A stretch of 64,000 nt of DNA from Cephalotus follicularis (Eukaryota; Streptophyta; Magnoliopsida; Oxalidales; Cephalotaceae), in assembly GCA_001972305.1 (NCBI GenBank), contig BDDD01000082.1, positions 665,627 through 729,626 of the forward strand, given 5' to 3'. Position 1 is the first letter of the stretch. The number at the start of each line of letters is the position of its first letter. Position numbers and translations under genes: made by a program. Under the pieces are notes generated by a model. That model worked only from the letters and a program-made list of their open reading frames with translations, was not told the DNA's origin and searched no databases. Of this stretch, positions 1-63,369 are shown piece by piece.

Positions 1-456
1 GAAGTGATATTTGAATGCTTATATGAATGATATTGCATCTTTTAGATTTTTGTGCTTCGAGGGGCTTTTAATTGTTGATCAATTCATCTATCTTTGTTGT
101 GATCGCTTAAGGTACGGATGTTTCATTCCTTCATACACTCCTACTGTTTTTATAGTAAAAAGATAGTTTTACTTTATTGAATAACGTACAGATTCCTATC
201 GTTCCTTGGCTATCTGTTTATCAAAGTAAAAGTAGTTTTATTTTATAATCTTGTTTTATAGCTTGGTTATGTTTTACGATATGTTATGAAATGATCATCT
301 CTTTATAGTGGAAAATAAATGAGTTGATGCTATGTAATGATTTTTGCTATGTCTAGAAAATGTTAGAAAATGTGTTTACGTTTTAAAAATTGTTTTTAGA
401 AATAAAACAATGTTTTCAAAATAAGTTTATACACAGAGATATTTCCTACCTATGGA
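1..456. other. AT-rich flank, no gene recognised
   Basis: No coding region longer than a chance ORF is visible. The stretch is AT-rich, with runs such as the A/T-rich block at 360-430. It does not match the corresponding part of the Gy1 3' LTR (sequence before 7256), so it lies outside Gy1 or replaced the missing part of its 5' LTR. It could be another degraded repeat; nothing here decides. Confidence 0.5.
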
Positions 457-775
457 ATTCTCCTTTTATAATTGAGTTGTTGAACATTTATCATGATATG
501 TATTTGGGATTATTTGTAACATGGTTTACATTGTTATCTCGTACTGATGTATTATTTCACGCTCCGTTTTGGGCGATCAACAGTTATGTTGGATTATCGG
601 GCATCACGTAGTATGGGATGCGTGATGTGTTTTTAAATTCGGCTCGTTAAGTTATTGCTTCCGCTATTGAAGTTTTTTTTTAATTGTTGGTAATTTTTGT
701 ATGAGGTGGATTACTTTTCGTTGATTGCTTTACCACTTATATGTTGTCTATGTTGTGGAAAGACGGGGTGTGACA
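457..775 (+). repeat. Gy1 5' LTR, truncated (3' 319 bp only)
   Basis: Homology to the 3' LTR begins at 457 (equivalent to 7256) and runs to the terminal TGTGACA at 775. The 3' LTR is 2136 bp, so about 1.8 kb is missing, including TATA-like box and splice donor. The copy keeps the conserved hairpin at 602-627. Confidence 0.9.
602..627 (+). other. Conserved LTR hairpin (Gy1, 5' copy)
   Basis: Stem CATCACG (602-608) pairs with CGTGATG (621-627) around loop TAGTATGGGATG. The stem ends 148 nt before the LTR end. The same loop with different but still paired stems occurs in Gy2, Gy4, Gy5 and Gy6. Function unknown. Confidence 0.75.
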
Positions 776-886
776 ACAGTGGTATCAGAGCATATTCCAT
801 ATATGCTAAGCTGGGATAAGTTTCTCGAAAAAAAAAATTAAGGGAATTGTTTCCTAATGATTTTGTCATTCCATATAGGAAACAGA
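776..886 (+). promoter_or_regulatory. Gy1 primer-binding site and leader, with splice acceptor
   Basis: TGGTATCAGAGC at 780-791 is complementary to the 3' end of plant initiator-Met tRNA and would prime minus-strand DNA. It overlaps a perfect 7-bp hairpin, AGCATAT (789-795) with ATATGCT (801-807), loop TCCAT. The leader ends in a pyrimidine-rich stretch and ATAG at 875-878, a good 3' splice site, 8 nt before the gag ATG at 887. Confidence 0.8.
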
Positions 887-3800
887 ATGGATCGAAGGAG
901 AGGAAGACGTGGAAGGCATAGAGCTGACGAGGTGAACGATGCCCCGCCTGTTCACGAAAATGCCACTCCAGTGCACGATGAGAGGAGTAACTTCGAACGC
1001 ATGGCTGATCTTTTCCAACAGCAGATCCAAGCCAATGCTGCACACATGGAACAGATGAGACAGATGTATGAGGCTACTCAAGCCCGACAGTGTGTTCCAG
1101 AAGTCAACCATGTTGGCGATTTTGGCAGAGACCTGGAGTGGTTCATGAGGCAGAATCCTCCTACATTCCTGGGAGAGTTGGATGCCAATGTAGCTGAGCG
1201 ATGGATGAGAGTCATGGAAAGGATATTTGACGCCTTGAGGTGTACCGATTAGCAAAAGATTACCTTTGCTGTGTACCGCCTATGGGGTGAAGCTACTCAT
1301 TGGTGGGAGATGGTTGAAGCAAAGTGGGAATCCCGAAATCTGGACAGAACTTGGGACCGATTTCAATCAGAGTTCTCAACAGCTTATGTTCCACAGATGG
1401 AGCGAGACAGGAGAGAGACAGAATTGATGGAGTTACGCCAAGGTGATATCACAGTAGCTCAATACCAGACCCGTTTTGTGGAGTTAGCTCGGCACACGCC
1501 CTATCTTGTAGAGGGTGAATCCAGAAAGATCTGGAGGTTTCTGAAAGGCCTTCGTCCGGATATCCGATCTAAGTTATTACTGTTGCAGCTAACATCTTTT
1601 GTAGATATTGCTGAGAGAGCTAGAATTCTGGAAGCTGATGCAAATGACAGAAGGATTGAGCGATCTCGTACTCAATCTAGACCAGCTTCTTCGAGATGGC
1701 AAAACGGTGGTTCTCCGAACAAGTCATCGAAGAACAAATCTGGGCAGACTGCCACTTTGGGGACTCCTAGTCAAGGGAGCAATGCAGGAACCGGAGCTTG
1801 TCACCACTGTGGTCAAAAGGGCCACTTGCAGAAGGATTGTTGGAAGATGAAAGGGCTATGTTTAAGGTGTGGAGCGTCTGGTCATTCGGTGAAGGACTGC
1901 ATGAAGAATTCTGCTACAGCGCCTACTGGGCCGGGGAGCAGCAGCGGCGCGGCTGTGGGACCATCACTGAGGAGAGATAACGACAAGGGCATCGCAAAAG
2001 GTAGATTTTTTGTACTTGCTCAGACTGAGGTTCCAGAGTCGACTTTCGTTGTTGGAGGTACTCTGTATATATATGGTTATTCTGCTAGAGTACTAATGGA
2101 TTCAGGTGCATCGCATTCTTTTATATCTGCATGTTTTGCATCTTGCTTAGATGTCACCCATGACTTCTTGTCCTATACACTTGATGTGAGTACACCGACT
2201 GGGACTTCCATGTATACCGACTCAGTATATAGGAGTTGCGAGATGTCTATGGCAGGCATTCCTCTATATGCAGATCTGATTGTACTACCTATCCGTGATT
2301 TCGATGTAATATTGGGGATGGATTGGCTATCGGTGTACCGTGCTCGTATGGATTGTTACCACAAGACTGTGGATTTTCGTCTGCCCGACGGAATGACTTT
2401 TCAGTTCAAGGGAGACAAGGGGTTCTCAACACCGATCATATCTTTTATCCGAGCATCGAGATACCTGGAGAAGGGATGCGAAGGATATTTGGCCTATGTT
2501 ATTGATCAGAGGAAGGAGAAAGGCTTGAGTTTGGAGGAAATTCCAGTTGTGTGTGAAATTCTGGATGTGTTTCCTGATGACTTGGGATCACCCAAGAGGA
2601 GTATGGAGTTCGTTATCGACCTTGTTCCTGGAACGGCTCCTATCTCTAAATCACCCTATCAGATGGCTCCGGCTGAGTTGCGAGAGCTGAAGCTGCAATT
2701 ACAAGACCTGGTTGATAAAGGTTTTGTAAGACCCAGTGTTTCGCCGTGGGGTGCACCTGTGCTGTTTGTCAAGAAAAAGGATGGGTCGATGAGGCTCTGC
2801 ATTGACTACAGAATGTTGAACAAAGAAACTATCAAGAACAAGTATCCTTTACCCCACATCGAAGATTTGTTCGATCAGTTGCAAGGAGCGAGAGTCTTCT
2901 CGAAGCTTGATCTGAGAATAGGATATCACCAGTTGAGGGTGAGGGAAGGAGATATCGAGAAAACTGCCTTCCGAACACGGTACGGTCACTATGAATTCCT
3001 GGTGATGCCTTTTGTGTTACCAATGCACCGGCTGCGTTCATGTCATTGATGAACGATGTGTTCTGACCGTACTTAGACCAGTTCATCGTTGTGTTTATTG
3101 ACGATGTACTTGTATACTCAAGAAGCGAGGAAGAGCATGCTTCCCACCTGAGGTTGGCTCTACAGATTCTCCGAGAGCACCAGCTATACGCCAAATTCAG
3201 TAAGTGTGAATTTTGTCTTGACCATGTGATCTTTCTTGGTCACATAGTATCTGGAGAGGGTTTGACGGTGGATCCGTCAACGACAGAGGTGGTACGAGAT
3301 TGGCCACAGCCGAGGAATGTGACGGAGGTATGCAGTTTTCTTGGTTTGGCGGGATATTACAGAAGGTTTATTCAAAATTTCTCAAGGATAGCTGAGCCTT
3401 TGACTAGACTAACCCAGAAGAAGACTTTGTTTGTCTGGGATGAAGGTTGCGAAGCTAGTTTCCGTGAACTGAAGGATCGGTTGGGTTCCGCTCCTATCTT
3501 GGCATTACCTGAAGGTAATGAGGGCTTTGCAATCTACAGTGCTGCATCGGGTAAAGGCTTGGGCTGCGTATTGATGCAACGAGGAAAGGTGATCGCTTAC
3601 GCTTCTAGGAAGCTGAAGCCATATGAAGAAAACTACCCGACTCATAACCTTGAACTTGCAGCTATCATCTTCGCCCTTCAGAAGTGGAGACACTATCTTT
3701 ACGGGGTGCAGTTTGAGATCTACACCGATCATAAAAGTTTAAGGTACCTGTTCTGCCAGGACACGCTGAACATGAGACAGCGTAGGTGGGTAGAGTTCTT

Positions 3801-6876: not shown

Positions 6877-7400
6877 AACTTACTGTGACTTGCTCCCGGG
6901 GGTGGAGTAAGAGCGCATGACGTTGGGGCCAGGAGGTGGCGACGGTCATGACGATTGGATTGTCTGGTTCCTTTTTGGGAAGATATTTACTGCTTGTGTT
7001 GATATAACTTATGAGTTATACCTGTACTGTGAGCATGCATATATTTTTATACAAAGGTATACTTACTGAAAAATTACATGTCATGGCTCATCATTATGCA
7101 TTCATTCATGATACTCTTTATCTTATGACTTGAACTGCATTTTATGGGTTTATTCACTTAGCTGAGTGAGGACAAAGGCTAATCCCTACTGTAACAGATT
7201 GATGGAGTAGTCTTGATATGGAGTATGCACGGAGACTTAAAGAGAAGGCTTGGATATTCTCTTTTTATAATTGAGTTGTTGAACATTTATCATGATATGT
7301 ATTTGGGATTATTTGTAACATGGTTTACATTGTTATCTCGTACTGATGTATTATTTCACGCTCCGTTTTGGGCGATCAAAAGTTATGTTGGATTATCGGG

Positions 7401-7426
7401 CATCACGTAGTATGGGATGCGTGATG
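7401..7426 (+). other. Conserved LTR hairpin (Gy1, 3' copy)
   Basis: Stem CATCACG/CGTGATG around loop TAGTATGGGATG, identical to the copy at 602-627, ending 148 nt before the LTR end. Confidence 0.75.
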
Positions 7427-7574
7427 TGTTTTTAAATTCGGCTCGTTAAGTTATTGCTTCCGCTATTGAAGTTTTTTTTTTAATTGTTGGTAATTTTTGT
7501 ATTAGCTGGATTACTTTTCGTTGATTGCTTTACCACTTATATGTTGTCTATGTTGTGGAAAGACGGGGTGTGAC

Positions 7575-25458: not shown

Positions 25459-27985
25459 TCTAACGCCCAAGATTTTCATTTGATGTACTATTATGATTCT
25501 CATTGTAAATTATCAGGAATCAATGAGAAATGATGGATTTTTTCAATTTATAATGTTGAATTGGAGTGTAGGAATGATAAGTGTGTTATATGGATTTGGA
25601 AACAGTGGAAATGGTCCTAAAGAGTCAGCTCCTTGAAGCAAAGCATTGACGCCTAAGGAGAAAAACGCATGTTCAAGGCGCATACACTTAAATCGTTGAC
25701 GCCAGCGATAAGCGTTGACGGCAATGCATACACAGGGTAAACCGGCGACGCTACATGCAAACCGGTCAAGGCCAGTAAAACGTGTCAAGGGCACTAAAAC
25801 GTGTCCTCAGCTGTTGCATGCAGGGAGAGTGGTGTTCTTAGTGCATGCAAACCTGTAAAATAGAAGAGAAAAGGACAAACATAGGGAGAGAAAGAAATGG
25901 ACAAGTGGGTATCCATGCATGCGGCTTGAGAAGGAGGAAGAGAAATGCAACTTGCATAAACACCTTCCTTCATCTTCTCCATAACCGTACCTGGAAACTA
26001 GAAGGAACTGAAAAGAATTGAGAGAAAATAGTAAGGAACTAGAGAGAAAAATAGAGGTTAAACCTCCATTGTTGGACCAAGCTTCGAGCTTGGAGTGAAC
26101 TTGGATTGGAGCTACTGTGGCCGAACTTGGGAACTGAAATTACTGGACGAAAACCTTAAAGAGGTGGACTTTCGGTTCCTAACTTGGAATCAAAGGTAGG
26201 GGATTTATACATGTAAATTTGAGTTCATAGTTAGTGTATGGCCATTAATGAAGTGCATGAATTGCATGATTGTTATGGATTGATTGGACTGTGTGATTGA
26301 TGCCATGATTACCTTGATATGTAAACTGTCAATGCCTTTCATATTTTGGATAAATATTGAACTGGTTTGCATGTGTGTTTTGGGTTGAACCCGGCTGGTA
26401 TTGTGTGTAAACGATGAAGGTGACGTTCTGGGTCGCCTAAACGTCGACGCTTATGATGGAAGCGTCGATGCTTTGACACGCCATGCTAAGAATGTGCACT
26501 GAATTGTCGGTAAACGTCGATGCTTAGAGAAAGGGTCGACGCCCTATTTCAAAAATGAGTAAGGATGGACATGTGGACATTGACGCCTAAGGTCGTACCT
26601 CAAAGCATCCATGCCAAAGGATAAGCGCCGACGCTCAAGGATCCTTAACTTGAAGCGTCAACGCCAAAGGACTACTGTTGACGCGTCTATTTCTGGTTAA
26701 AGCGCTGACGCCATGGAGTTGAGTGTCGATGCTTACAGGACGTAAGCGTTGACATCTAGAGGATAAACATCGATGCTTAAGCTACTGTTTTGGACGATTC
26801 TGCTTAGATCATGTACGTTGACACCGAAATGACTATAGATGCATTTGAGCATATGTTTGCATTGCACTTCCTATGAATTGGGATTGTGTACTGGATGGAA
26901 TTGTGGATTGGATTGAATTGTGAACTGGATTGTTATTGCTTCTAAAATGTTTTACCATTTTAGGAAGTTGCATTCATGATTTATTTTAAATCATTAATTT
27001 TACATAAAATGTTATGTTCAAAATTGATATACGTTTTCAAAGGATTGAGACATATTTTGAGTGAATATGTTGTGTCAAGTATTTTATGAATCATAAACTA
27101 CTTGAAAGAGGATTGTTATATATTTGAATAAATATATGTTTTCAAGTATTTATTTATATAAATGATTGAATTGGATTGTGATTGGATTGTGCCGTATTAT
27201 TCGTGGTGGCGGAGATTACCACTGACGCTAATAGGAAGGGTTGGACTCCAGGGGCCAGGAGATGGCTGGAGGAACCCATGATGTTGGTTACTTAGCCTTA
27301 GTGCAAAAGTAACATTGGATTGTGACCTACTTCAAGTCGTTCGGAGACGGGACTGGAGTGAGGAGTTGTGTATCTGGGCCAGGAGATGGCGATGCCTTCG
27401 TGTATTGATGGATTATTGGTTGTAGCCACTTGGCATGGTTGCTCACCTATTGATAGATATACATATATAGATATATATGTATATATTGTTATACACTATG
27501 TATTGCAGCATGATGAATTCATACATGACATTCATTATCATTAACCCCAAAATGTATTTATAATTTCTCTACTTAGCCGAGTGAGGACAAAGGCTAACCC
27601 CTACAATTTCAAATTGATGCAGCGGGATTTGTACAGCGTATGTTGGAGGATTGAAGAATAGACTGAATTATTCTTTTATGTAATGTTAAATTGGATAATG
27701 TATTGAGCGGTGTTTTAAATTTGGATTTCTGTATTGATGAACTTATGAAATTTGATTAAATATTAGCTCATGCTCCGTTTAAGGGTAATTGACAATGATA
27801 ATATTTTACTATTGTAACATGTAGTATGTGATGCATGTTACGTGTTAATTCAGCTTATGTGTTAAGGCTTCCGGAATGTTATATGTGTTGGAAAAGTTTT
27901 AAATTTTTCGTATTTTATATAAGCTGGATATTTATATATGTTTATTGCAATGACCTAAGTGTTAATATAGAAACAGGGTGTGACA
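25459..27985 (+). repeat. Gy2 5' LTR (2527 bp)
   Basis: It starts TCTAACGCCC (TG decayed to TC) and ends GTGTGACA at 27985. Landmarks: TCGA array 1 at 25625-25760; TATA-like CATAAACACC at about 25955; splice donor CAAAG/GTAGGGG with intron from 26196; TCGA array 2 at 26440-26790; GGGGCCAGGAGATGGC (27251-27266), repeated near 27376; conserved block GTGAGGACAAAGGCTAACCC at 27581-27600; hairpin 27814-27841. No gene. Confidence 0.9.
27814..27841 (+). other. Conserved LTR hairpin (Gy2, 5' copy)
   Basis: GTAACATG (27814-27821) pairs with CATGTTAC (27834-27841), loop TAGTATGTGATG. It ends 144 nt before the LTR end. The stem sequence differs from Gy1 but remains fully paired. Confidence 0.75.
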
Positions 27986-27989
27986 GCAC

Positions 27990-28017
27990 TTGTATCAGAG
28001 CATATTCCATATATGCT
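27990..28017 (+). promoter_or_regulatory. Gy2 primer-binding site and adjacent hairpin
   Basis: TTGTATCAGAGC (27990-28001) is the initiator-Met primer site with one change from TGGTATCAGAGC. The hairpin AGCATAT/ATATGCT follows (27999-28017), loop TCCAT, exactly as in Gy1 and Gy6. Confidence 0.8.
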
Positions 28018-32679: not shown

Positions 32680-35232
32680 TGTAAAGCTTGGGATTTTCAT
32701 TTGATGTACTATTATGATTCTCATTGTAAATTATCATGAATTAATGAGAAATGACAGATTTTTCCAATTGATAATGTTGAATTGGAGTGTAAGAATGATA
32801 AGTGTGTTATATGGATTTTGAAACAGTGGAAATGGTCCTAAAGCATCGGCTCCTTGAAGCAAAGCGTCGATGCCTAAGGAGAAAAAAGCACGTTCAAGGC
32901 ATATACACTTAAAGCGTTGACACCAGGGATAGGCGTTGACGCCAATGCCTACACAGGGTAAATTGACGATGATAGATGCAAACTGGCAACGCTTTACACA
33001 CAGGTAAGTGTGTAATACTTGTCGATTGGAACTGAATGGTGGCATTATGGCATTGTAACTTGAACAGGTACTAAGAGACGTGTCAAGGGCACTAAAACGT
33101 GTCCTCAGTTGTTGCATGCAAGGGAGAGTGGTGTCCTTAGCACATGAAAACCTGCAAAATAGAAGAGAAAAGGACAAACATAGAGAGAAAGAAATGGACA
33201 AGTGGGTATGCATGCATGCGGCTGGAGAAGGAGGAAGAGAAATGCAACATGCATAAACACCTCCCTTCATCTTCTCCATAACCGTACCTGGAAACTAGAA
33301 GGAACAGAAAAGAATTGAGAGAAAATAGTAAGGAACCAGAGAGAAAAACAAAGGTTAAACCTCCATTGTTGGACCAAGCTTGGAGCTTGGAGTGAACTTG
33401 GACTGGAGCTATTGTGCCCAAACCTGGGAACTCAAATTACTGGATAGAAAGCTTAAAGAGGTGGACTTTCGGTTCCTAACTTGAAATCAAAAGTAGGGGG
33501 TTTATACATGCAAATTTGAATTCAAAGTTAGTGTATGGCCATTAATGAAATGCATGAATTGCATGGTTGTTATGGAATTATTGGACTGTGTGATTGATGC
33601 CATGATCACCCTGATATGTAAACTGTCCATGCATGTCATATTTTGAATGAATATTGAACTGGTTTGCATGTGTGTTTTGGGTTGAACCATACTGGTATTG
33701 TGTGGAAACGATGACAGTGACGTTCTGGGTCGCCTAAACATCTTGACACATCATGCTAAGAATGCGTACTGAATTGACGGTAAACGTCAACGCTTAGAGA
33801 AAGCGTTGACGCCCTGTTTCGAAAATGAGTAAGGATGGACATGTGGACGTTGACGCCTGAGGTCCTACCTCAAAGCGTCGACGCCAAAGTAATGAACGCT
33901 GACGCTCAAGTATCCTTACCTTGAAGCGTTGACGCCAAAGGACAACTATTGACGCGTTTATTTCTTGTTGAAGCACGACGCTATAGAGTTGAGCGTTGAT
34001 GCTTAGAGGACATAAGCGTCGACCCCTAGAGTATAAACGTCGTCACTTAGGCTACTGTTTATGACGATTTCGCTTAGATCGTGTACGTTGACCCCAAAAT
34101 GACTATAAATGCATTTGACCATATGTTTGGATTGCACTTGCTACGAATTGGGATTGTGTATTGGATTGGATTGAATTGTGAATTGGATTGTTATTGCTTC
34201 TAAAATGTTTTACTATTTTAGGAAGTTGCATTCATGATTTATTTTAAATCATTAATTTTACATAGAATGTTATGTTCAAAATTCAAATACGTTTACAAAG
34301 GATTGAGACATATTTTGAGTAAATATGTTGTGACAAGTATTTTATGACGCATAAACTACTTGAAAGAGGATTGTTATATATTTGAATAAATATATGTTTT
34401 CAAGTTTTTATTTATATAAATGACTTGAATTGGATTGTGCCGTATTAGTCGCAGTGGCGAAGATTACCACTGACGCTAATAGGCAGGGTTGGACTCTACG
34501 GGCCAGGAGATGGCTGGAGGAACCCGTGATGTTGGTTACTTAGCCATTGTGCGAAAGTAACATTGGATTGTGACCTGCTTCTAGTCATCCAGAGATGGGA
34601 CTGGAGTGAGGAGTTGTGTATTTGGGCCAGGAGATGGTGATGCCTTCGTGTATTGATGGATTGCTGGTTGTAGCCACTTGGGATGGTTGCTCACATATTG
34701 ATACATAGACATATATAGATATTTTTGTATATATTGTTATACACTATGTATTGCATCACGATGCATTCATACATGACATTCATTATCATTGACCCCAAAA
34801 TGTATTTCTAATTTTTCTACTTAGCCAAGTGAGGACAAAGGCTAACCCCTACAATTTCAGATTGATGCAGCGGGATTGGTACAACGTACGTTAGAGGATT
34901 GAAGAAGAGGCTGAATTATTCTTTTATGTAATGTTAAATTGGATGATGTTTTGAGAGGTGCTTTAAATTTCGATTTCCATATTGATGAACTTATGTAATT
35001 TGATTAAATATTAGCTCATGCTCCGTTTAAGGCAATTGACAATGATAATATTTTACTGTTGTAATGTGTAGTATGTGTTGCATGTTACGTGTTAATTCAG
35101 CTTATGTGTTAAGGCTTCCACAATGTTATATGTTTTGGAAAAGTTTTAAATTTTCTTTATTTTATATAAGCTGGATATTTATATATGTTAATTTCCATGA
35201 CCTAAGTGTTGTTATACAAATGGGGTGTGACA
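32680..35232 (+). repeat. Gy2 3' LTR (2553 bp)
   Basis: It matches the 5' LTR through its length with many substitutions and several indels. TCGA arrays at about 32860-32960 and 33780-34060, donor copy weakened (AAA/GTAGGGG near 33492), conserved block at about 34819-34852, hairpin 35061-35088, end GTGTGACA at 35232. The ORF at 32734-33279 (-) is not preserved in the other LTR and is rejected. Confidence 0.9.
35061..35088 (+). other. Conserved LTR hairpin (Gy2, 3' copy)
   Basis: GTAATGTG pairs with CATGTTAC through two G-T wobble pairs; loop TAGTATGTGTTG. Relative to the 5' copy, both stem changes keep pairing. It ends 144 nt before the LTR end. Confidence 0.7.
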
Positions 35233-43316: not shown

Positions 43317-45565
43317 CGAATCCGAGTCTACTTTATGCTCAAAGCGAACTTCGGGGAGTCAGTGCGTTACGTGGTGGTGAAACCTATAATCCTTTAACAA
43401 TCCTACTAATTGCTAATATCAATAAATAACTTGATATACTAAACCTTAAAATTTTATATTCTTATTTAAATCATCATACATCATAACAATTATAGTCAAC
43501 ATCTTACATCTCCACAGGATCTATCAAGAGGCATTATATAGAGGAAAACATTAGTTTATAATGTCATAAACTATTACACAAAACTATATTTCGTAACATA
43601 ATCCGTAACATAATTTCTTCTCAAAATTATCACTTATGAGCTCCTGCCAAAGCTCGACTTTCCTCGTTCAATCTTTTCCTGGAAAATTTTAGTTGAAAAC
43701 AAAAACATTGAAAGGAGTGAGCACCAAAATAGCTCAGTAAGAACTATCGAAATAAAACATTATTCAAATCCATTTTCTAGTATTTTTATAAAACCAGTAC
43801 ATTTCACATTCATTCATTTCTTTTTTGATCATATCTCATGAATCAGAATATTTCATAAATACTGAGAAGTTAATAAAATTAAATAACCCTATTGAACCAT
43901 TGCTTCACCGGGGCATTGTGCACTCCCCGATTACTATCCTTACATCACATGCATGTCCGAGAGCACTCTCCGCTCTTTAACATTAATATTTTACTAGATT
44001 AATCCACCCTGGATCGCAATCAATTCGTTGTTCATCTCAGTTTGTTGCCTTTTCTCATTTCGTAAAAATAATCATTTCTTGATACGTTGAGTGATCAGCT
44101 CAAAGCATTCATAAATAATTTTGTACAACATTTTCTAGAATTTATATTTCAAACGAAAATATTTTAAAATGGTAATATATAATTTCGTTAAGAAATTGGC
44201 AGCAATTCAACATAGAATTTAAGAATTTACATAAATTTAATATAGACATTTACCACGAATATTTATACCGATCATGTCGATGGGAAAGTTAAATTAAATT
44301 GAGTTAATAAAATAAACGGTTGCAACGAGCATAAAATTGCTTAATTAAAATATTAACTTCCTCCACTTAGTCAGACGGATATACCGATCATGTCGATGGG
44401 AAAGTTAAATTAAATTGAGTTGATAAAATAAACGGTTGCAAAGAGCATAAAATTGATTAATTAAAATATTAACTGAAAATTAACTTCAAATTAACTTCCT
44501 CCACTTAGTCAGACGGATATACCGATCATATCAATGGGAAAGTTAAATTAAATTGAGTTGATAAAATAACCGGTTGCAACGAGCATAAAATTGCTTAATT
44601 AAAATATTAAATGAAAATTAACTTCAAATTAACTTCCTCCACTCAGTCAGACGGTTATACCGATCATGTCGATGAGAAAGTTAAATTAAATTGAGAAGAA
44701 TACTAAAAAAAATACTTTAAAAGAGTGAGTAGAAATTCTTTACATAAAATACTAGCATAAAATATATTGACAAAGTGGCAAAAAATCCTTACTAATATAA
44801 AGTACTTTTAGAAGAAGACTAGGGATCCTTACCTTGCTTTATCTCCTTCTCTCTTTTCTCCACACTGAAGAAATTACTATGCTGAAATCCCAACAAAATT
44901 CTCTTTTCTCCTCTTCCCTTCTTTCTCTCTTTCTCTCTTCCTTCTCTTCTTTCTCTTTCTCTCTTCCTTCTCTCAGTAAACACACTCTCTCAATTATTCT
45001 TTACCTCTCGCTCAACATTACACATATATATAGGGTAAAAACGCCGCCTCCATTTTTGTCATTTTTGCCCATTTTTACCGCGTCCGTTCGTTGCTCGACA
45101 CGTGGCGCACAAAACGTCAAAAATGACTCAAAGCGTCGACGTTTAATGCAAAGTGTCGACGGTTTGCCCTCAAAGTGTCGCCAGTTAACAGGATTATCAA
45201 AGAAAATAGGCTTTAAGCATCGGCGGTTTAGAAATAACAAAGGAATAAGCGTCAGCGCTTTTGGCCTCAAAGTGTCGCCAGTTGTGTGTGTTTTAACAAA
45301 GTCAATGAAAATGAAGGAAAGTGTCGCCGCTTTCTAGCCAACTGTCGACGCTTTACTCCTTTAAAATGGACATTTTTATCGCCGCAAAACATACAACACA
45401 CCATACAACATTTAGAACAATAACTTCAACCAAGCGTTAGGGTCCCTTACCGGGGAGCGGAACCCCCGACCCCCCCGAGCATTAGGGTCATAGAACTGGT
45501 CCCTTAAAATATTTCCCTATCTCAACAATGGTAATAAAATTTTACAAAATTTTCCGGTCATTACA
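43317..45565 (-). repeat. Gy3 3' LTR (2249 bp)
   Basis: Minus strand: TGTAATGACCGG (45565) to GGGGCGTTACA (43317). TCGA-type array at 45125-45350 (gcgtcgacgt, tgtcgacgg, tgtcgccag), TATATATA at about 45020-45030, a long purine run on the minus strand (44880-44985), splice-donor-like GCAAG/GTAAGGATCC with intron from 44832 leftward, and four tandem repeats at 44267-44690. ORFs at 44834-45337 come from the pyrimidine run and LTR and are not genes. Confidence 0.9.
44267..44690. repeat. Tandem repeat in Gy3 LTR, four copies
   Basis: The word ACCGATCATGTCGATGGGAA starts at 44267 and 44383, and near-copies at 44521 and 44659. Spacing is 116, 138 and 138 bp; the longer units contain an extra AACTGAAAATTAACTTCAA segment. 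The region is AT-rich and lies in the transcribed part of the LTR, after the donor. Confidence 0.85.
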
Positions 45566-47952: not shown

Positions 47953-48781
47953 TGTCACGCCCCCATTTTCGAGAAGACAACATTAAAGTGGTAAAGGCAA
48001 TTAACATATAAATACAGCTTATGCAATACCATCAAATTTAAACTGATAAACAGAAAGTCAGTAGCGGAAGCATAAGAATTCATAAGCTGTAAACATGTAA
48101 CGTGCATCCCAAACTACACGCTACCAAATACAAGTCGGTCATTGTTAATCGCCCACAAATGGAGCATGATCACAATACAATATTAAATCCCATCATTAAA
48201 CAAACCATAGTACAGTACATTAGTCCTTAAATAAAACTCGGTTCATTACAAAACATGAGAAAAGTAAAACCAAGAACAAACATCATAACATCTTGTCCTT
48301 TGCCCATGCCAGTCCAACCGATCCACTGCATCAATCTGTAAAGTAGGGGGTTACCCTTTGTCCTCACTCGGCTAAGTCATAAAAGTAGCTCAGGATCAAC
48401 ATTAAATGCCTGTCATGTAATGTATGCATAAATGATGCAGTGTAGGAAATGTCAGTGTGTATATATATATATATATATATATATGAGAAATATATATATA
48501 TTTAGCAGTACAGTAAAATAACGGTAGGTACATATATAAGAAAATATATGTAACAATAACAATACAGTAGTGATCCAGCCAGGATCAAATCCACAAGCAC
48601 AGTAATGTCTGAAAAGGAGCAACAGGCAGTACTGTATGTCCATAAAGGACCACAACAGTCAGGCAGTATGTGTAACGCCGCCAACTCCTGGCCCCATGCT
48701 ACACTCCCACTCTGGTCCCTACTCCAGGCAACTGAGTAAGGCAACAGTACAGTATAGTGAGTCACCCAGCCATACTCCTAG
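47953..48781 (-). repeat. Gy4 LTR, 3' part
   Basis: Hairpin at 48097-48124 (ending 144 nt from the LTR end), conserved block as complement GGTTACCCTTTGTCCTCAC at about 48349-48367, a (TA)n run at 48460-48500 and the complement of GGGGCCAGGAGTTGGCGGCG at about 48676-48695. No gene; ORFs at 48452-48765 are repeat by-products. Confidence 0.8.
48097..48124 (-). other. Conserved LTR hairpin (Gy4)
   Basis: On the minus strand, GTAGCGTG pairs with CACGTTAC (one G-T wobble), loop TAGTTTGGGATG. Third distinct stem sequence, 144 nt from the LTR end. Confidence 0.7.
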
Positions 48782-51328
48782 TGTCACACCCCGCCTTTCA
48801 ATGCGTTGACAAACATATAAGGTGATATCAGAAATAAGCATAAAATAATATTCCAGCATTTCAATTAATAACCATAATTAAATTTTGCGGAAGCATTCGA
48901 TAAGCCAGAATATAAAATAAGCCGTCCGTACGCATCCCATACTACGTGCGGGTAAAACCACAATTATCCTTACATAAAAGGAAAATACAACACTACGAAC
49001 CGTTCAATTTTAAACTACAGTACAACACCATAAATAACAACCTTAAATCAAAAATAAGAAGCTTTCCAAGCTTCAGCAGCAGTCTCCAAATGTCCTTGCT
49101 TAATCTAAAATGGTAGGGGTTAGCTGTTGTCCTCACTTGGCTAAGTAGAATGATAATGTATGATAAGGAGTATATGAATGCAACATGTATGATAGTTTAT
49201 ATCAAAATAACATTTAATTGAGCCAATATATAAGCAATCATGCCAAGTGGCCATAAACAATCCATATGCAAGAATACCGCACAAGGGTACAATCAATCAG
49301 TCCAGTGGTTTGTCCGAAGAGCAGTATTGGGCTCAAGACGCCGCTAACCCCTAGCCTACGTCGAGCCACCTAGCTATCATCCCAACTCCACTGATGATAG
49401 GAGGCAAACAGTACTACCGGCATTTAGTGGGTAGCTAACAATCAGTTCTTCATTTGCAGACAGTATGGGTGGATGCTCTAGCCAACTCCTGGAACATAGG
49501 ACCACCTCCGTAGTCAGTGATGGCTCCTATCACTCGACTAACGGCAGTAAACATAGACAACCAATTCAATCAGTGCAATCCAATGTAATATTACATATGT
49601 GTATAATATGCAATATGAAAATTGTTTTCTTTAGAAACATTAACAATTCAGTAATCGTACCTCTCATAAGAGGAAAACGATATCAGTAACAGTAGTGGTT
49701 TCCAGTTGGAAACAAAACAGTAGGCAGTAAAACAGTAGGTGATAAATCAGTAGTTTCTTGTAATGATAGTTTTTCATTTGAAAACAATAGTTAACCTTAA
49801 TTGTGCATTTGATGAATAACTTCGTTCAATCGTTGAAATATAATAGTAGCAATGTTAAATAACATCAAACAGTAGATACTATGTAATGGTAGCATATGCA
49901 ATTCAATAACAGTACCAAACAGTAGCAATTCGATCAATTTATGCAATTTCTACCCAGAACAGTCGGCTGCCCTCAAGAACCAGTCGGTTGTTGGGTTGTG
50001 TAGTCGATTGCTTTGCCTTGGCAGTCGACTGGATAGGTTGAGTATTCGACTGTCAAGGGTGGCAGTCGACTGCCTCTGCCCAGAAAATGCAGGCAGTAGC
50101 ATGTCATGCAATGTAATTTCAATTTCCAATCAATTCCACACATGTAATCATGCAGAAAATAGACATACGTAATATGCATACTCATATCTTCCATAACATA
50201 TCGTTACCCCTACCTCAAATCGCTATCCCAAGATCAATTGAATTTGATTTTTCTCTTTGAGTTCCAAGTCACTTTTCATCAATCACTCTTTCACTTCCAG
50301 CGGAATCAATCTATGCATGTTTGTTTATGAATGCATGTATGAATATCAGTAGGTTTCAATGATTTTAATAGTGGTTTAATCATTAATCCATTTAAGTCTT
50401 AACTTTCCTCTTACCATTCTATCACTTTGTTCTTTGAATTCTATACCAATATCATTAAATCTCGGTTTCATTGATCTTAATTTATTTGACAGTAGGTATA
50501 TGCATACTTAGGAACCATTAAGCATATATCCTATCACTAATAACAATTAGAATCCATTTATAATCACTAATTCCATTGATCCCATTGCTACTTTCCATTT
50601 CAATTCCAAAGGTTGTTAATTATTATCCATTAACAGAAGATATACAACTTTTCCTACTCATTTTATCATCAAAATAACAAAGAATTCAGATTGAGAACTT
50701 ACCAAGAGTCTAAAGCCTCAAAGTCCTCCTTTTTGAGCTTTCTAACATCTCCAATGTAAGCCTTCCACAATCCTTAGTAACTCTCACTCCACTCTATGTT
50801 TCTAACACTCCTAACACCATTCAACATCTGATATAAAACCTGAATTCGTCAGATTCCATCCAAGTCATATGCACTCACATTCCATTCTTCTTTCCACCAC
50901 ATGCATTGTCCTCTTTCACTTTTCTCTCATAATATATTAATTTGTAGGTTTTAGAACTGCAGAGAACATGCAAACATTCCCCTTTTGCATGTTCTGGCAG
51001 GTGGTCGACGCATGTGCCCATACCTACCAATCATTCTTGTCCCTGTACATGCCAGGCATCTGTCCTGGAGCAATCCAGTCGACTGGATTTAGTAGGCAGT
51101 CGATTGCCTTCTTCACATGGCAAACAGTCGACTGTTGCTCTGTGACAGTCGGCTGTTTGGGTTAGATTAGGGTTTCCTAGTGTTTGATACTTCACCAATT
51201 GCACTTCCAATCAACCCCAAGCAATTATCAATCACAAAAATCAGTATAATTGGACAGATAACTCAATCAAAATATATTTTGTTTCGATTTTGGATCAATA
51301 TACATTAATTGAAGTTACGGTTATTACA
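48782..51328 (-). repeat. Gy5 3' LTR (2547 bp)
   Basis: Minus strand TGTAATAACCG (51328) to GGTGTGACA (48782). TCGA words of the CAGTCGACTG type at about 51080-51150 and 49965-50080, TATA-like AATATATTA at about 50930-50940, donor CTTG/GTAAGTTCTC with intron from about 50702 leftward, conserved block at 49113-49148, hairpin 48926-48951. ORFs inside are not conserved coding sequence. Confidence 0.92.
48926..48951 (-). other. Conserved LTR hairpin (Gy5, 3' copy)
   Basis: CCGCACG with CGTACGG on the minus strand, one C-A mismatch; loop TAGTATGGGATG. The 5' copy is perfect. The stem ends 144 nt from the LTR end. Confidence 0.65.
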
Positions 51329-54300: not shown

Positions 54301-55946
54301 GCCAAGTAACCTTCGCATCCATGCTCGAGATATTTTTGTGCTCGTGTATATGGAATGATCGGAGTAGTAACATTCTTCTCCCCGATAAACTTGCACTCCG
54401 TCCCATCTTGCAGATAAAAGGTCATCATCTTGTTATAGCAATCCACACAAGCATGATGAGCATACAGCCAATCCATCCCCAAGATTACATCAAAATCTCG
54501 GATAGGTAATACTATCAAGTTAGCGGATAGTTCAATCCCAGCTATCATGATTTCACAGCCTTTCATAACAGTGTCAGATAAAAGACAAGTACCCGCAGGA
54601 GTACTCACTTCCAAGACATATGATAGTCTAGTAGTAATGCCATGCAAATTGCGCGCAAATTCAGATGCAATGAATGAATGCGTCGCACCAGGATCAATTA
54701 ATACATGAGCTAATATGCCATATATATAGATAGTACCTCCCACAACAGTAGTAGATTCAGGTACATCATCTTTAGATAGGGTATAGACCCTACCTTTCAT
54801 AATCCCCTTCCCGGTGTCTCTTCGTGGTGGAGCCGCCGCAACACTGCCACTAGCGCCAGCACTTCCTTGTTGGCCGCGTACTTGTTCCCTTGTCATTGGG
54901 CAATTCATCACTTTGTGACCTTGTGAACCACACCTTAAGCACTTTCCCGTCTTCTTCCAGCATTGAGACTCATCATGATTCGGACGACCACAGAAAGTAC
55001 ATCCGCTTGCATTCGGTTGACTATTTCGGTTAGGTGTCCTTGATCGTGTGCGTTGAGAATTCCATTGCCCTTTGTTGTCAAATCTGGTTGACTTAGCAAG
55101 ATTATTGCTTCCCTACCCCCTTGACTGTGTAGCCCTCGATGGAACAACTCAAGATCGTTCTGCTCTCCTTTCATTCGCGTCAGCTTCCAGAATCATTGCT
55201 CTTTCAGCAACATCAACAAAAGTGGTCAGCTGTAACAATAACAATTTGGACCTGATATCTGGTCGAAGGCCTTTCAAGAACCTTTGTATCATCCGTGACT
55301 CACCCTCAACAAGATAAGGCGTGTGTCTCGCCAGCTCCACGAATCTAGTCTGATATTGAGCTACCGTCATCTCTCATTGACGTAACTCCATCAGCTCTGT
55401 CTCCCGACGATCTCGTTCAATCTACGGTACGTAAGTACCAAGAAACTCGAACTGGAATCTGTCCCAAGTCCTGTCAAACCCACGGTTTTCCCATTTCGCT
55501 TCAGTTCTCTCCCACCAATAAGTTGCCTCGCCCCATAAGCGGTACACAACAAAATTAAGCTTTTGGTCATCAGTGCATTCTAGGGCAGCAAATATCTTTT
55601 CTAGGTCTCTGATCCACAGTTCAGCTATGGTAGCATTCAACTCACCATTGAAAGTTGGAGGATTCTGTCTCATGAACCGCTCCAGGTCTCTGCCAAAATC
55701 ACCGACATGATTGACTTCTGGAACACACTGTCGGGCTTGAGTAGCTTCATACATCTGTCTCATCTGTTCCATGTTCGCTGCATTGGCTTGGATCTGCTGT
55801 TGGAAAAGATCAGCCATGCGTTCGAAGTTACTCCTCTCATCGTGTACTGGAGGAACATTCACCTCCGGGGCATTTTCGTGAACAGGCGGGGCATTGTTCC
55901 CCTCGTCAGCTCTACACCTTCCACGTCTACCCTTCCTTAGATCCAT
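51375..55946 (-). pseudogene. Gy5 gag-pol, nearly intact frame
   Basis: Starts MDLRKGRRGRCRADEG at 55946. One frame holds gag core, two knuckles ([14 protein letters not shown] and [14 protein letters not shown], about 54990-54900), protease [11 protein letters not shown] (about 54700; D-P-G replaces D-S-G), RT with FLDDILIYS (about 53690), RNase H with YTDAFGK (Asp kept, about 53245), integrase zinc region and DDE core (about 52590-52080), and a C-terminal chromodomain motif (EEATWEREDEM, FPHLF). Stops: 55419, 55374, 55149, 55113, 52614, 51849 and 51840. A one-base loss near 53822 and a one-base gain near 53240 cancel, leaving about 190 codons out of frame. The DPG change may disable the protease, so it is probably non-autonomous. 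Confidence 0.93.
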
Positions 55947-56020: not shown

Positions 56021-56048
56021 AGCATATATGAAATATGCTCTGATACCA
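56021..56048 (-). promoter_or_regulatory. Gy5 primer-binding site and adjacent hairpin
   Basis: The complement of 56037-56048 is TGGTATCAGAGC, the initiator-Met primer site. AGCATAT/ATATGCT hairpin at 56039-56021, loop TTCAT. The splice acceptor CATTCCATATAG ends at 55955, 8 nt before the gag ATG. Confidence 0.85.
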
Positions 56049-56051
56049 TGC

Positions 56052-58558
56052 CGTCACACCCCGCCTTTCGATGCGTTGACAAACATATAAGGTGATATCA
56101 GAAATAAGCATAAAATAATATTCCACCATTTCAATTAATAACCATAATTAAATTTTGGGGAAGCATTCGATAAGCCGGAATATAAAATAAGCCGTCCGCA
56201 CGCATCCCATACTACGTGCGGGTAAAACCACAATTATCCTTACATAAAAGGAAAATACAACACTACGAACCGTTCAATTTTAAACTACAGTACAACACCA
56301 TAAATAACAACCTTAAATCAAAAATAAGAAGCTCTCCATGCTTCAGCAGCAGTCTCCAAATGTCCTTGCTTAACATTTAATTGAATGCAATGATAAGGAG
56401 TATATGAATGCAACATGTATGACAGTTTATATCAAAATAACATTTAATTGAGCAAATATATAAGCAATCATGCCAAGAGGCCATAAACAATCCATATGCA
56501 AGAATATCGCACAAGGGTACAATCAATCAGTCCAGTGGTTTGTCTGAAGACCAGTATTGGGCTGAAGACGCCGCTAACCCCTAGCCTACGTCGAGCCACC
56601 TAGCAATCATCCCAACTCCGCTGATGATAGGAGGCAAACAGTACTACCGGCATTTAGCGGGTAGCTAACAATCAGTTCTGCATTTGCAGACAGTATGGGT
56701 GGATGCTCTAGCCAACTTCTGGCACATAGGACCACCTTCGTAGTCAGTGATGGCTCCTATCACTCGACTAACGACAGTAAACATAGACAACCAATTCAAT
56801 CAGTGCAATCCAATGTAATATTACATATGTGTATAATATGCAATATGAAAATTGTTTTCTTTAGAAACATTAACAATTCAGTAATCGTACCTCTCATAAG
56901 AGGAAAACGATATCAGTAACAGTAGTCGTTTCCAGTTGGAAACAAAACAGTAGGCAGTAAACCAGTAGGTGATAAATCAGCAGTTTCTTGTAATGATAGT
57001 TTTTCATTTGAAAACAATAGTTAACCTTAATTGTGCATTTTATGCATAACTTCGTTCAATCGTTGAAATATAATAGTAGCGATGTTAAATAACATCAAAC
57101 AGTAGATACTATGTAATGGTAGCATATGCAATTCAATAACAGTACCAAACAGTAGCAATTCGATCAATTTATGCAATTTCTACCCAGAACAGTCGGCTTC
57201 CCTCAAGAACCAGTCGGCTGTTGGGTTGTGTAGTCGACTGCTTTGCCTTAGCAGTCGACTGGATAGGTTGAGTAGTCGACTGCCAAGGGTGGCAGTCGAC
57301 TGCCTCTGCCCAGAAAATACAGGCAGTAGCATGTCATCCAATGTAATTTCAATTTCCAATCAATTCCACACATGTAATCATGAAGAAAATAAACATACAT
57401 AATATGCATACTCATATCTTCCATAACATATCGTTACCCCTACCACAAATCGATATCCCAAGATCAATTGAGTTTGATTTTTCTCTTTGAGTTCCAAGTC
57501 ACTTTTCATCAATCACTCTTTCGCGTCCAACAGAATCAATCTATGCATGTTTGTTTAGGAATAGATGTATCAATATCAGTAGGTTTCAATGATTCTAATA
57601 GTGGTTTAATCATTAATCCATTTAAGTCTTAACTTTCCTCTTACCATTCTATCACTTTCTTCTTTGAATTCTATACGAATATCATTAAATCTCGGTTTCA
57701 TTGATCTTAACTTATTTGACAGTAGGTATATGCATACTTAGGAACCATTAAGCATATATTCTATCACTAATAACAATTAGAATCCATTTATAATCACCAA
57801 TTCCATTGATCCCATTGCTACTTTCCATTTCAATTCCAAAGGTTGTTAATTATTATCCATTAATAGAAGATATACAACTTTTTCCTAGTCATTTTATCAT
57901 CAAAATAACAAAGAATTCGGATTGAGAACTTACCAAGAGTCTAAAGCCTCAAAGTCCTCCTTTTTGAGCTTTCAAACATCTCCAATGTAAGCCTTCCACA
58001 ATCCTTAGTAACTCTCACTTCACTCTGTGTTTCTAACGCTCCTAACACCATTCAACATCTGATATAAAACCTGAATTCGTCAGATTCCATCCAAGTCATA
58101 TGCACTCACATTCCATTCTTCTTTCCACCACATGCATTGTCCTCTTTCACTTTTCTCTCATAATATATTAATTTGTAGGTTTTAGATCTGCAGAGAACAT
58201 GCAAACATTCCCCTTTTGCATGTTCTGGCAGGTGGTGGACGCATGTGCCCATACCTACCAATCATTCTTGTCCCTGCACATGCCAGGCATCTGTTCTGGA
58301 GCAATCCAGTCGACTGGATTTAGTAGGCAGTCGACTACCTTCTTCACGTGGCAAACAGTCGACTGTTGCCCTGTGACAGTCGGCTGTTTGGGTTAGATTA
58401 GGGTTTCCTAGTCTTTGATACTTCACCAATTGCACTTCTAATCAACCCCAAGCAATTATCAATCATAAAAATCAGTATAATTGGACAGATAACTCAATCA
58501 AAATATAATTTGTTTCGATTTTGGATCAATATACATTAATTGAAGTTGTGGTATTACA
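56052..58558 (-). repeat. Gy5 5' LTR (2507 bp)
   Basis: Very similar to the 3' LTR, but lacking about 40 bp near 56368 that contains the conserved GTGAGGACAAAGG-type block. TATA-like AATATATTA at about 58162-58172; donor CTTG/GTAAGTTCTC with intron from 57933 leftward; TCGA words CAGTCGACTG at about 58305-58385 and 57180-57305. The terminal base next to the leader is mutated (complement of TGACG instead of TGACA). Confidence 0.92.
56196..56221 (-). other. Conserved LTR hairpin (Gy5, 5' copy)
   Basis: Minus strand CCGCACG pairs perfectly with CGTGCGG, loop TAGTATGGGATG, 144 nt from the LTR end. Confidence 0.75.
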
Positions 58559-62166: not shown

Positions 62167-62726
62167 AACATACGGAGGACTTGCTCCAAAACCGTTCGCA
62201 AACGGGGATAGGGTAAGAGTGCATGACGTTGGGGCCAGGAGGTGGCGACGGTTATGACGACGTGCTTGTCTGGTTCCTTTTGGGACATACTTATCGCTTG
62301 TGTTGATATAACTCATGAGGTTATACTTGTATTGTGAATATGCATATATTTTTGTATATGTATATACGAAGATATAATTATTGTGAAAATTACATGTCAT
62401 ATTGCATCATAATGCATTCATTCATGATACCCATTATCACATGACTCGAACTGTATTGATAAGTTTATTCACTTAGCCGAGTGAGGACAAAGGCTAACCC
62501 CTACTGTAACAGATTGACGGAGTGGATTTGACACGGAGCATGCGCGGAGACTTAAAGAGAAGACTTAGCTGTTTCTCTTGTTTTCCTGTATTAAGTTAAT
62601 GAACTTTGATCATGTTAATTTGGATTATTGTAACAAAGGTTATTTTGTTATCTCGTACTGTATATTTTCACGCTGCGTTTTTGGGCGATCGACAATGAGG
62701 TTGGGTTTATTTATAAACTTGTTAGG

Positions 62727-62752
62727 CATCACGTAGTATGGGATGCGTGATG
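62727..62752 (+). other. Conserved LTR hairpin (Gy6)
   Basis: CATCACG/CGTGATG with loop TAGTATGGGATG, as in Gy1, ending 144 nt before the LTR end. Confidence 0.75.
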
Positions 62753-62896
62753 TATGTTTAAATTCAGCTCATTTATGTTATTGCTTCTGCTATTGAAGGT
62801 TTTTATTTATTGGTAAATTTGCATGAGCTGGATTATTTTATGTTGATTGCCATACCACTTTATATGTTGTCTTAATTGGGAAAACGGGGTGTGACA

Positions 62897-63009
62897 ACGT
62901 GGTATCAGAGCATATTCCATATATGCTTAGCTAGGATACTTTCCTTGGCAATCAATACATTGTTTTCCGAATGTCATGACTAACCGTCATCCCTCTTACA
63001 GGAAACAAT
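62897..63009 (+). promoter_or_regulatory. Gy6 primer-binding site, leader hairpin and splice acceptor
   Basis: TGGTATCAGAGC (62900-62911) primer site, hairpin AGCATAT/ATATGCT (62909-62927), acceptor CCTCTTACAG ending at 63001, ATG at 63010. With the donor at 60761 this predicts a 2241-nt leader intron. Confidence 0.7.
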
Positions 63010-63369
63010 ATGGATAGAAAAGGAAGAGCTAAGGCTGTTGAGGGGAGTGCTCCTCAGGGAACAAGTGAAGAGAGAGATCCGCTGGATTGAATGGCTGACT
63101 ACTTTCAACAGCAGGTGGCTGTGGATGCGGCAAACCTAGAAGACATGTGGCGATGGTACACAGATCGTGTAAATGACCATTTCCATCGACATGTGGTTGC
63201 TAATACCACGCGCTTGGAAGAAATGCGGTAGCTGTGTATTGAAACACAACAAGCTAAACGGACTAGGCCAGCTCCACTAGAGTGGCAAGATGGAGACTCT
63301 TCAAGGAAGTCATCAAAGAACAGTTCTCAGCAAACGGCCGCTAAGGAAGCTTCGAGTCAAGAAGGTGAT
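63010..63369 (+). pseudogene. Gy6 gag, internally deleted
   Basis: Starts MDRKGRAKAVEGSAPQ like the other chromovirus gags, followed by the N-terminal Gln/Met-rich helix (ADYFQQQ, LEEMR). After IETQQAKR it jumps to the linker that normally follows the gag core (PAPLEWQDGDSSRKSSKNSS), so the core of roughly 200 residues is missing. It ends at SSQEGD where LTR sequence starts. Stops: TGA 63088 (aligned Arg) and TAG 63229 (aligned Gln). Confidence 0.82.

Follow-up and report, generated by a model that had tools for sequence, protein, structure and literature searches.

A covarying hairpin in the LTRs of likely chromoviruses of Cephalotus follicularis and its candidate contacts with the primer tRNA-iMet

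Described primer-tRNA contacts and the elements of the window

The closest described systems are Ty1 and Ty3 of Saccharomyces, which use tRNA-iMet as the primer. In the sections of the two papers drawn on here, segments of their genomic RNA besides the PBS pair with the T and D arms of this tRNA, and these extra segments matter for packaging and initiation (PMC4974528, PMC5371799). As far as the same excerpts go, these segments are located in GAG, on the 3′ side of the PBS, in Ty1 and in U3 or the 3′ UTR in Ty3. In HIV-1, an A-rich loop is reported, in the part of the source cited, to contact the anticodon loop of the primer tRNA-Lys3 (PMC7793103).

The window, by which the whole analysed stretch of 64,000 nucleotides is meant (positions 665,627 to 729,626 of contig BDDD01000082.1, assembly GCA_001972305.1), carries retroelements termed Gy1, Gy2, Gy4, Gy5 and Gy6, whose LTRs share a hairpin, H1. 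Like Ty1 and Ty3, the H1 elements have tRNA-iMet as the primer and a further RNA segment complementary to its D arm. Unlike in Ty1 and Ty3, the complementary words are located in hairpins within the LTR, on the 5′ side of the PBS, one of them is for the anticodon loop, and the matches listed for the 16 loci of the H1 superfamily (from 298 nt before the PBS start to at most 200 nt beyond it) include no T-arm match of at least 7 nt. Shared with HIV-1 is a candidate pairing between a leader loop and the anticodon loop, UAUGGG with CCCAUA, known here from the sequence. The H1 elements differ from HIV-1 in the tRNA and the sequence used, in a long covarying stem about 140 to 175 nt upstream of the PBS, and in a D-loop partner. 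No description of the H1 hairpin, or of D-loop or anticodon contacts in plant LTRs, was found in a literature search that reached few subscription papers; as far as these sources go, the combination of anticodon-loop and D-loop words in LTR hairpins 5′ of the PBS is new, although extended primer-tRNA contacts are known.

The bacterial T-box riboswitch reads the anticodon, the elbow and the acceptor end of one tRNA with separate RNA parts. The likeness to it is one of analogy only, since the H1 domain belongs to a eukaryotic retroelement and would serve another purpose, and Rfam gave no T-box match in window positions 453 to 830. The same scan, which covered this one LTR, returned only a sub-threshold bacterial sRNA (26.6 bits, with a gathering score of 81), and a known Rfam family was rejected for want of a match at the gathering score. 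In retroviral leaders, the kissing loops of dimerisation (DIS) likewise combine a conserved loop with a variable stem. A DIS-type dimer kissing loop was rejected by inspection, and a loop-loop homodimer is not expected, because UAUGGG has no stable self-pairing.

The Pfam hits in Gy1 follow the gypsy order of gag, PR, RT, RNase H and IN, and some homologs are named Ty3-gypsy. SH3_Tf2-1 is strong in three elements. The Chromo domain (PF00385) scored 24.5 and 20.3 bits in Gy1 and Gy5, respectively, against a cut-off of 25.1, and none was found in three pieces of the Gy2-region element. The elements are likely chromoviruses in the strict sense. A 416-nt inverted repeat, 83% complementary, lies at window positions 959 to 1374 and 55444 to 55859; leader and gag sequences of Gy1 and Gy5, facing opposite ways, make up this repeat, so that in this part the two families are related despite their different H1 stems. 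Self-alignment also revealed short tandem repeats, about 116 nt in period, at 44264 to 44763.

Occurrence, covariation and fold of the H1 hairpin

Eight copies of H1 occur in the window. Those on the forward strand lie in the 5′ LTR of Gy1 (602..627, loop core TATGGG), the 3′ LTR of Gy1 (7401..7426), the 5′ LTR of Gy2 and a Gy2-like 3′ LTR (27814..27841 and 35061..35088, both with the loop core TATGTG), and the 5′ LTR of Gy6 (62727..62752). Those on the reverse strand lie in Gy4 (48097..48124, loop core TTTGGG) and in the 3′ and 5′ LTRs of Gy5 (48926..48951 and 56196..56221). The original prediction had described all eight, and their coordinates and stems were confirmed, including the single C-A mismatch of the copy at 48926..48951. 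It had also assigned them a 12-nt loop, which proved too long, since the outer bases pair and leave GUAUGGGA with the core UAUGGG. Across 47 aligned copies, positions 1 and 12 of the supposed loop form U-G in 39 rows, U-A in 5 and C-G in 3, positions 2 and 11 form A-U in 44 and G-C in 2, and positions 3 and 10 pair (G-C or G-U) in 9. RNAalifold, applied to these 47 LTR 3′ parts, gave H1 unaided, as a stem of nine base pairs capped by an 8-nt loop, and the hexaloop has a predicted mean probability of being unpaired of 0.81. The distance from the 3′ foot of H1 to the LTR end, counted to the base after ..GTGAC, is 144 nt in six window copies, as had been described, and is not fixed more widely: it is 148 and 149 nt in the two Gy1 copies, and among 48 selected copies the distance ranges from 118 to 162 nt (the filter allowed 110 to 170 nt).

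The loop word is more abundant than expected by chance. The exact loop 12-mer TAGTATGGGATG has 29,402 matches in the 1.58-Gb assembly, compared with 116 for the reversed word, and the flanks of all 23 exact loop words in 20 fetched stretches pair at no fewer than 5 of 8 positions. To sample independently of the loop, 60 loci were taken in list order from the 40,906 places where the PBS word TGGTATCAGAGC occurs exactly, and were grouped into 19 clusters by how similar they are over the 360 nt around the LTR end, H1 included. The H1 superfamily is one cluster of 16 of these loci, with the LTR end GGGGTGTGACA or one change from it. H1, with a pairable stem, is present in 15 of the 16, and TATGGG is exact in 13. 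At the remaining locus, L058, the LTR is interrupted just upstream of the second hairpin described below, H2, and H1 is present in an inverted copy of the LTR within that stretch. Locus L090, which belongs to a different cluster, has the LTR end GGGGTGTGACA yet lacks H1.

For the alignment, 114 matches resembling the LTR end were collected, 86 of which match the loop in 8 or more of 12 letters, and many of these 86 lie off the LTR; 48 were kept that had at least 9 of 12 loop letters, 5 of 8 stem pairs and 5 of 6 core letters, and a foot 110 to 170 nt from the LTR end. Copies of H1 for which no LTR end was recognised, L019+4470 and L025+3046 among them, were left out, and L040 was dropped as the same place as an L015 row, giving 47 distinct rows. 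The exact loop word had selected the stretches of 24 of these rows and the PBS word those of 15, among them the inverted L058 LTR; the window supplied the other 8. All 47 passed the loop and stem filters, come from one genome, and are not independent within a family.

Covariation persists in this larger set. In the 47 rows, 84 cells of H1 and of a second helix, P1, show double-sided changes, 81 of them in H1; shuffles gave 35.1 (sd, 4.8), and sliding the arms gave at most 13. The arms of H1 pair at 7.0 of 8 positions within the same copy compared with 5.0 of 8 between families. H1 is nearly certainly a real conserved RNA structure. Of the earlier proposal that selection acts on a structure, the compensating stems around a fixed loop thus stand, and the 12-nt loop and the fixed spacing do not. 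Chance or plain inheritance of a repeat without structural selection is scarcely credible: copies within a family are indeed related, but between families both arms differ in a compensating way while the loop stays, and H1 is kept in 15 of 16 PBS-chosen copies.

As to the role of H1, the original prediction had listed candidates without choosing among them, and had missed both the larger domain closed by P1 and the match of the loop core and a second motif to a tRNA. One candidate can be judged from the loop itself. The loop has AUGGG, complementary to the initiator anticodon loop, and could present an AUG for translation or for a short upstream ORF; this is highly improbable, as the ORFs that open at the loop AUG share no common length and vary between 1 and 53 codons, and an upstream ORF was rejected on these lengths.

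The larger domain around H1 and its complementarity to tRNA-iMet

H1 sits inside a larger domain, in which P1 joins the LTR end to a motif upstream of H1 and H2 carries GCUUCCGC. P1 was also given by RNAalifold, as a long-range helix. Its upstream arm, a putative part of the element RNA, starts 52 to 68 nt before the H1 loop and is found at the homologous place in 40 of the 47 copies, 38 of which form at least 10 of 11 pairs. When the best place anywhere is allowed, at least 10 pairs are possible in 45 of 47 copies compared with 13% of shuffled flanks. The covariation support for P1 is weaker than that for H1, because its changes are mostly one-sided. In the 5′ LTR of Gy1, on the forward strand, the 5′ arm TCACGCTCCGT (557..567) pairs with the 3′ arm ACGGGGTGTGA at the LTR end (763..773). 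The corresponding arms on this strand lie at 7356..7366 and 7563..7573 in the 3′ LTR of Gy1, at 27768..27778 and 27973..27983 in the 5′ LTR of Gy2, at 35016..35026 and 35220..35230 in the Gy2-like 3′ LTR, and at 62668..62678 and 62884..62894 in Gy6. In Gy4, on the reverse strand, the 5′ arm (48159..48169) forms 9 of 11 pairs with the LTR end (47955..47965). No P1 5′ arm was found in either Gy5 copy.

H2 likewise pairs better within copies than between families. Its pairing score is 21.8 for native arms, 17.1 (sd, 3.4) for cross-family arms and 15.5 (sd, 2.8) for shuffled arms, and the arms vary in sequence, as in CAGCTTATG/CATAAGCTG, ATTCTGGC/GCTGGAAT and ATCCAGTAT/ATACTGGAT. At least seven copies (L010, both L011 rows, one L016 row, L021, L051 and the window copy at 56052) have their best H2 stem at another place. 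On the forward strand, the 5′ and 3′ arms are located at 636..644 and 703..712 in the 5′ LTR of Gy1, 7435..7443 and 7504..7512 in its 3′ LTR, 27848..27861 and 27916..27929 in the 5′ LTR of Gy2, 35095..35108 and 35163..35176 in the Gy2-like 3′ LTR, and 62763..62772 and 62823..62832 in Gy6. On the reverse strand, they are located at 48081..48091 and 48013..48023 in Gy4 and at 48904..48913 and 48848..48857 in the 3′ LTR of Gy5; in the 5′ LTR of Gy5 they were placed by homology to the other Gy5 copy, at 56174..56183 and 56118..56127, and are not the best-scoring stem.

Between the arms of H2 lies the D motif, TGCTTCCGC, 24 to 30 nt beyond H1 in the window copies. It is unchanged in both LTRs of Gy1 (656..664 and 7455..7463, forward strand), in Gy4 (48064..48072, reverse strand) and in the 3′ LTR of Gy5 (48887..48895, reverse strand). 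It has one change in the 5′ LTR of Gy5 (TGCTTCCCC, 56157..56165, reverse strand) and in Gy6 (TGCTTCTGC, 62782..62790, forward strand), and it is altered in the 5′ LTR of Gy2 (GGCTTCCGG, 27866..27874, forward strand) and the Gy2-like 3′ LTR (GGCTTCCAC, 35113..35121, forward strand). The fold predictions do not clearly expose the D motif as a single strand: its mean probability of being unpaired is 0.40 compared with 0.39 overall and exceeds 0.5 in 15 of 47 copies, and in 31 copies it is 0.45 in the free fold and 0.52 with H2 imposed.

The PBS TGGTATCAGAGC is the complement of the 3′ end of tRNA-iMet. The 12-nt match is complete in Gy1 (780..791, forward strand), Gy5 (56037..56048, reverse strand) and Gy6 (62900..62911, forward strand) and has one mismatch in Gy2 (27990..28001, forward strand). 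A search of the same genome for tRNA-iMet genes gave six hits to the core, and L033 and L034 are the expected 72-nt gene letter for letter. At a further hit, L032 (G000:C2098, near 63046 to 63070), a partial tRNA-iMet, from the D arm on, runs into CCA and then into an LTR end in antisense. This junction resembles the fossil remains of strong-stop DNA to which a reverse-transcribed tRNA primer is still attached.

Besides the LTR end, the longest nearly invariant column runs of the 47-row alignment are the H1 loop and TGCTTCCGC, and both match this tRNA. UAUGGG is the complement of CCCAUA in the anticodon loop of tRNA-iMet. The GCUUCCGC of H2 is complementary to the D loop, and GCTTCCGC is the complement of GCGGAAGC, which comprises the D loop and the adjoining stem. 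The complementarity of these two most conserved stretches to two loops of the primer tRNA suggests that the tRNA is captured. UAUGGG occurs in 41 of 47 rows, comprising 13 of the 15 PBS-chosen rows, 5 of the 8 window rows and the remainder among the 24 rows whose stretches had been chosen by the exact loop word. GCTTCCGC occurs in 30 of the 47 rows, and TTCCGC in 35. The candidate contact words lie about 90 to 175 nt upstream of the PBS, with the H1 loop at about 140 to 175 nt. Counting UAUGGG itself, only 4 of 4096 hexamers equal or exceed its binding to the anticodon loop, and 36 of 4096 (about 1 in 114) bind any of four tRNA loops as well; among 2000 shuffles of the D motif, 0.4% bind the tRNA as well as the D motif does. 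Taken alone, the 6-nt anticodon match is modest.

A protein could also account for H1. A fixed loop on a covarying stem is also the usual mark of protein recognition, and H1 might be a protein-binding hairpin, for example a packaging signal for Gag or nucleocapsid, whose loop matches the tRNA by chance, with the D motif perhaps still contacting it. The shortness of the anticodon match, 6 nt, and its absence from 44 other iMet-primed loci favor such a hairpin. Opposed to it are the place of the loop core among the 4 of 4096 hexamers that bind the anticodon loop of the primer so well, and the second conserved block, which independently matches another loop of the same tRNA. We regard protein binding as unlikely, though to be reckoned with.

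A partner for the loop within the element RNA was also considered. In many copies the PBS is followed by a hairpin (AGCATATTCCATATATGCT) whose UUCCAUA can pair with UAUGGGA, and a kiss between the two might serve as a strand-transfer or priming switch. At L048, the loop (UAUGAG) and the partner (TTTCATA) are both changed and still pair. However, L014, L026, L059, L077 and L087 lack TTCCATA and keep the loop core or one change from it, and in the Gy5 copy at 56196 the partner is changed (TTTCATA) and the loop is not. The partner thus varies and the loop mostly does not, which makes the kiss very improbable; it was rejected because the partner is not kept, despite the double change at L048.

The location of H1 could also be R, and stem-loops are known in the long R regions of retroviruses, according to the portion of the source cited (PMC3601003). 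A role in 3′-end formation, transcription or strand transfer, like that of a poly(A) hairpin and unrelated to the primer, is nevertheless improbable, as it leaves unexplained the complementarity to tRNA-iMet, the closure of the domain beside the PBS, and the contrast between iMet- and Asp-primed LTRs that is described below.

The D-loop word in other LTRs and the proposed capture of the primer

The core of the D-loop word is not confined to the H1 superfamily. Within 299 nt before the PBS, TTCCGC occurs in 15 of 44 non-H1 iMet-primed loci and in 6 of 18 clusters. The 60 letter orders of this word occur in about one cluster on average, and none of the 59 others reaches six. The background of 0.041 per 299 nt, estimated from both strands of 26 loci (218,150 nt, H1 copies included), predicts about two of 44 loci by chance. 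The neighboring D-loop words CTTCCG and TCCGCT are not enriched (2 of 18 clusters each). Elsewhere in the 60 loci, TTCCGC occurs once further upstream (200 nt each) and, within 188 nt on the downstream side of the PBS, at 4 loci. In the whole genome, it precedes the iMet PBS with a gap of 60 to 90 nt 2,335 times, compared with 16 times for the single control word CCTCGT, and with a gap of 91 to 121 nt 12,533 times compared with 13 (40,906 sites). Large families inflate such genome counts, and the cluster counts are therefore the safer measure.

LTRs primed by tRNA-Asp provide a contrast. TTCCGC lies 91 to 121 nt before a tRNA-Asp PBS only twice among 1,641 sites (counted for this gap only), and no D-loop or anticodon contact with tRNA-Asp was found in the 10 Asp-primed loci L097 to L106. 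Since these LTRs show no equivalent, extra tRNA contacts are not a universal rule. Their PBS match is longer, at 13 to 18 nt, and there may be a trade-off between PBS length and extra contacts.

TATGGG occurs in none of the 44 iMet-primed loci outside the H1 superfamily, so an anticodon contact, if real, is confined to this superfamily. Its presence there could equally be due to common descent or to a protein ligand.

The 44 non-H1 loci (L036 to L095) were also scanned with 70 antisense-tRNA 6-mers, each against at most a few hundred permutations, so that about one word with no permutation as high is expected by chance. Without correction for the 70 words, TGGGAC (the complement of tRNA positions 45 to 50) was found in 7 clusters, and no permuted word was as high; GATCCT (50 to 55) was found in 6 clusters, as for 1.1% of permuted words, and GGCCCA (27 to 32) in 3 clusters, as for 1.7%. 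As multiple words were tried, the D-loop claim rests on the effect size, the genome-wide counts and the Asp control. In another iMet-primed cluster, four of six loci (L042, L072, L073 and L088) carry CCAGGTTT(C), which is complementary to a part of the T arm, next to the PBS, about 17 nt upstream of it. Two tRNA-iMet PBS words lie 150 nt apart at L091 (C2:546469 and C2:546619).

We propose that the LTR leader domain captures and positions the primer tRNA-iMet by docking it at three points, which we consider on balance probable given the covariation of H1, the potential of P1 and H2 to pair, the complementarity to the tRNA-iMet genes of this genome, and the enrichment of the D-loop core in other iMet-primed but not in Asp-primed LTRs. 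The last 215 to 236 nt or so of the LTR would form the RNA leader domain. The LTR end ACGGGGUGUGA would pair with UCAYRCYYCGU in P1, closing the domain about 5 to 6 nt before the PBS. H1 would offer UAUGGG to kiss the anticodon loop (CCCAUA), H2 would present GCUUCCGC to the D loop GCGGAAGC, and the 3′ end of the tRNA would lie on the PBS beside the base of P1. By holding one tRNA at three places, the domain may allow specific primer selection, packaging or initiation despite a PBS of only 12 nt. If these pairings form between the RNA and the tRNA, they may serve primer capture.

A broader reading is more tentative. TTCCGC lies upstream of the PBS in 7 of the 19 iMet-primed clusters sampled, of which one or two loci may be background. 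Plant LTR families might share a tRNA-reading code of which TTCCGC is the word, to which one chromovirus-like superfamily would have added the anticodon-loop hairpin, turning its leader into a three-point receptor for the acceptor end, D loop and anticodon loop of the intact tRNA, comparable to a eukaryotic T-box, that would select or trap the primer; we hold this as a possibility that falls short of an even chance.

How plant LTR retrotransposons choose and load their primers is presumed from yeast. In the part cited here, a 2025 review deals only with acceptor-PBS pairing and with tRNA fragments as primers (PMC12786077). Pairing with the D loop and the anticodon loop would need an intact tRNA, which makes the question of intact or fragmented primers directly testable; a three-point receptor, if true, implies full-length tRNA primers and not only 3′ tRNA fragments. 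The H1 loop word, present 29,402 times, provides an entry point to repeats that are very abundant in a large plant genome, and the hairpin provides a structural marker for LTR annotation beyond TG..CA and the PBS.
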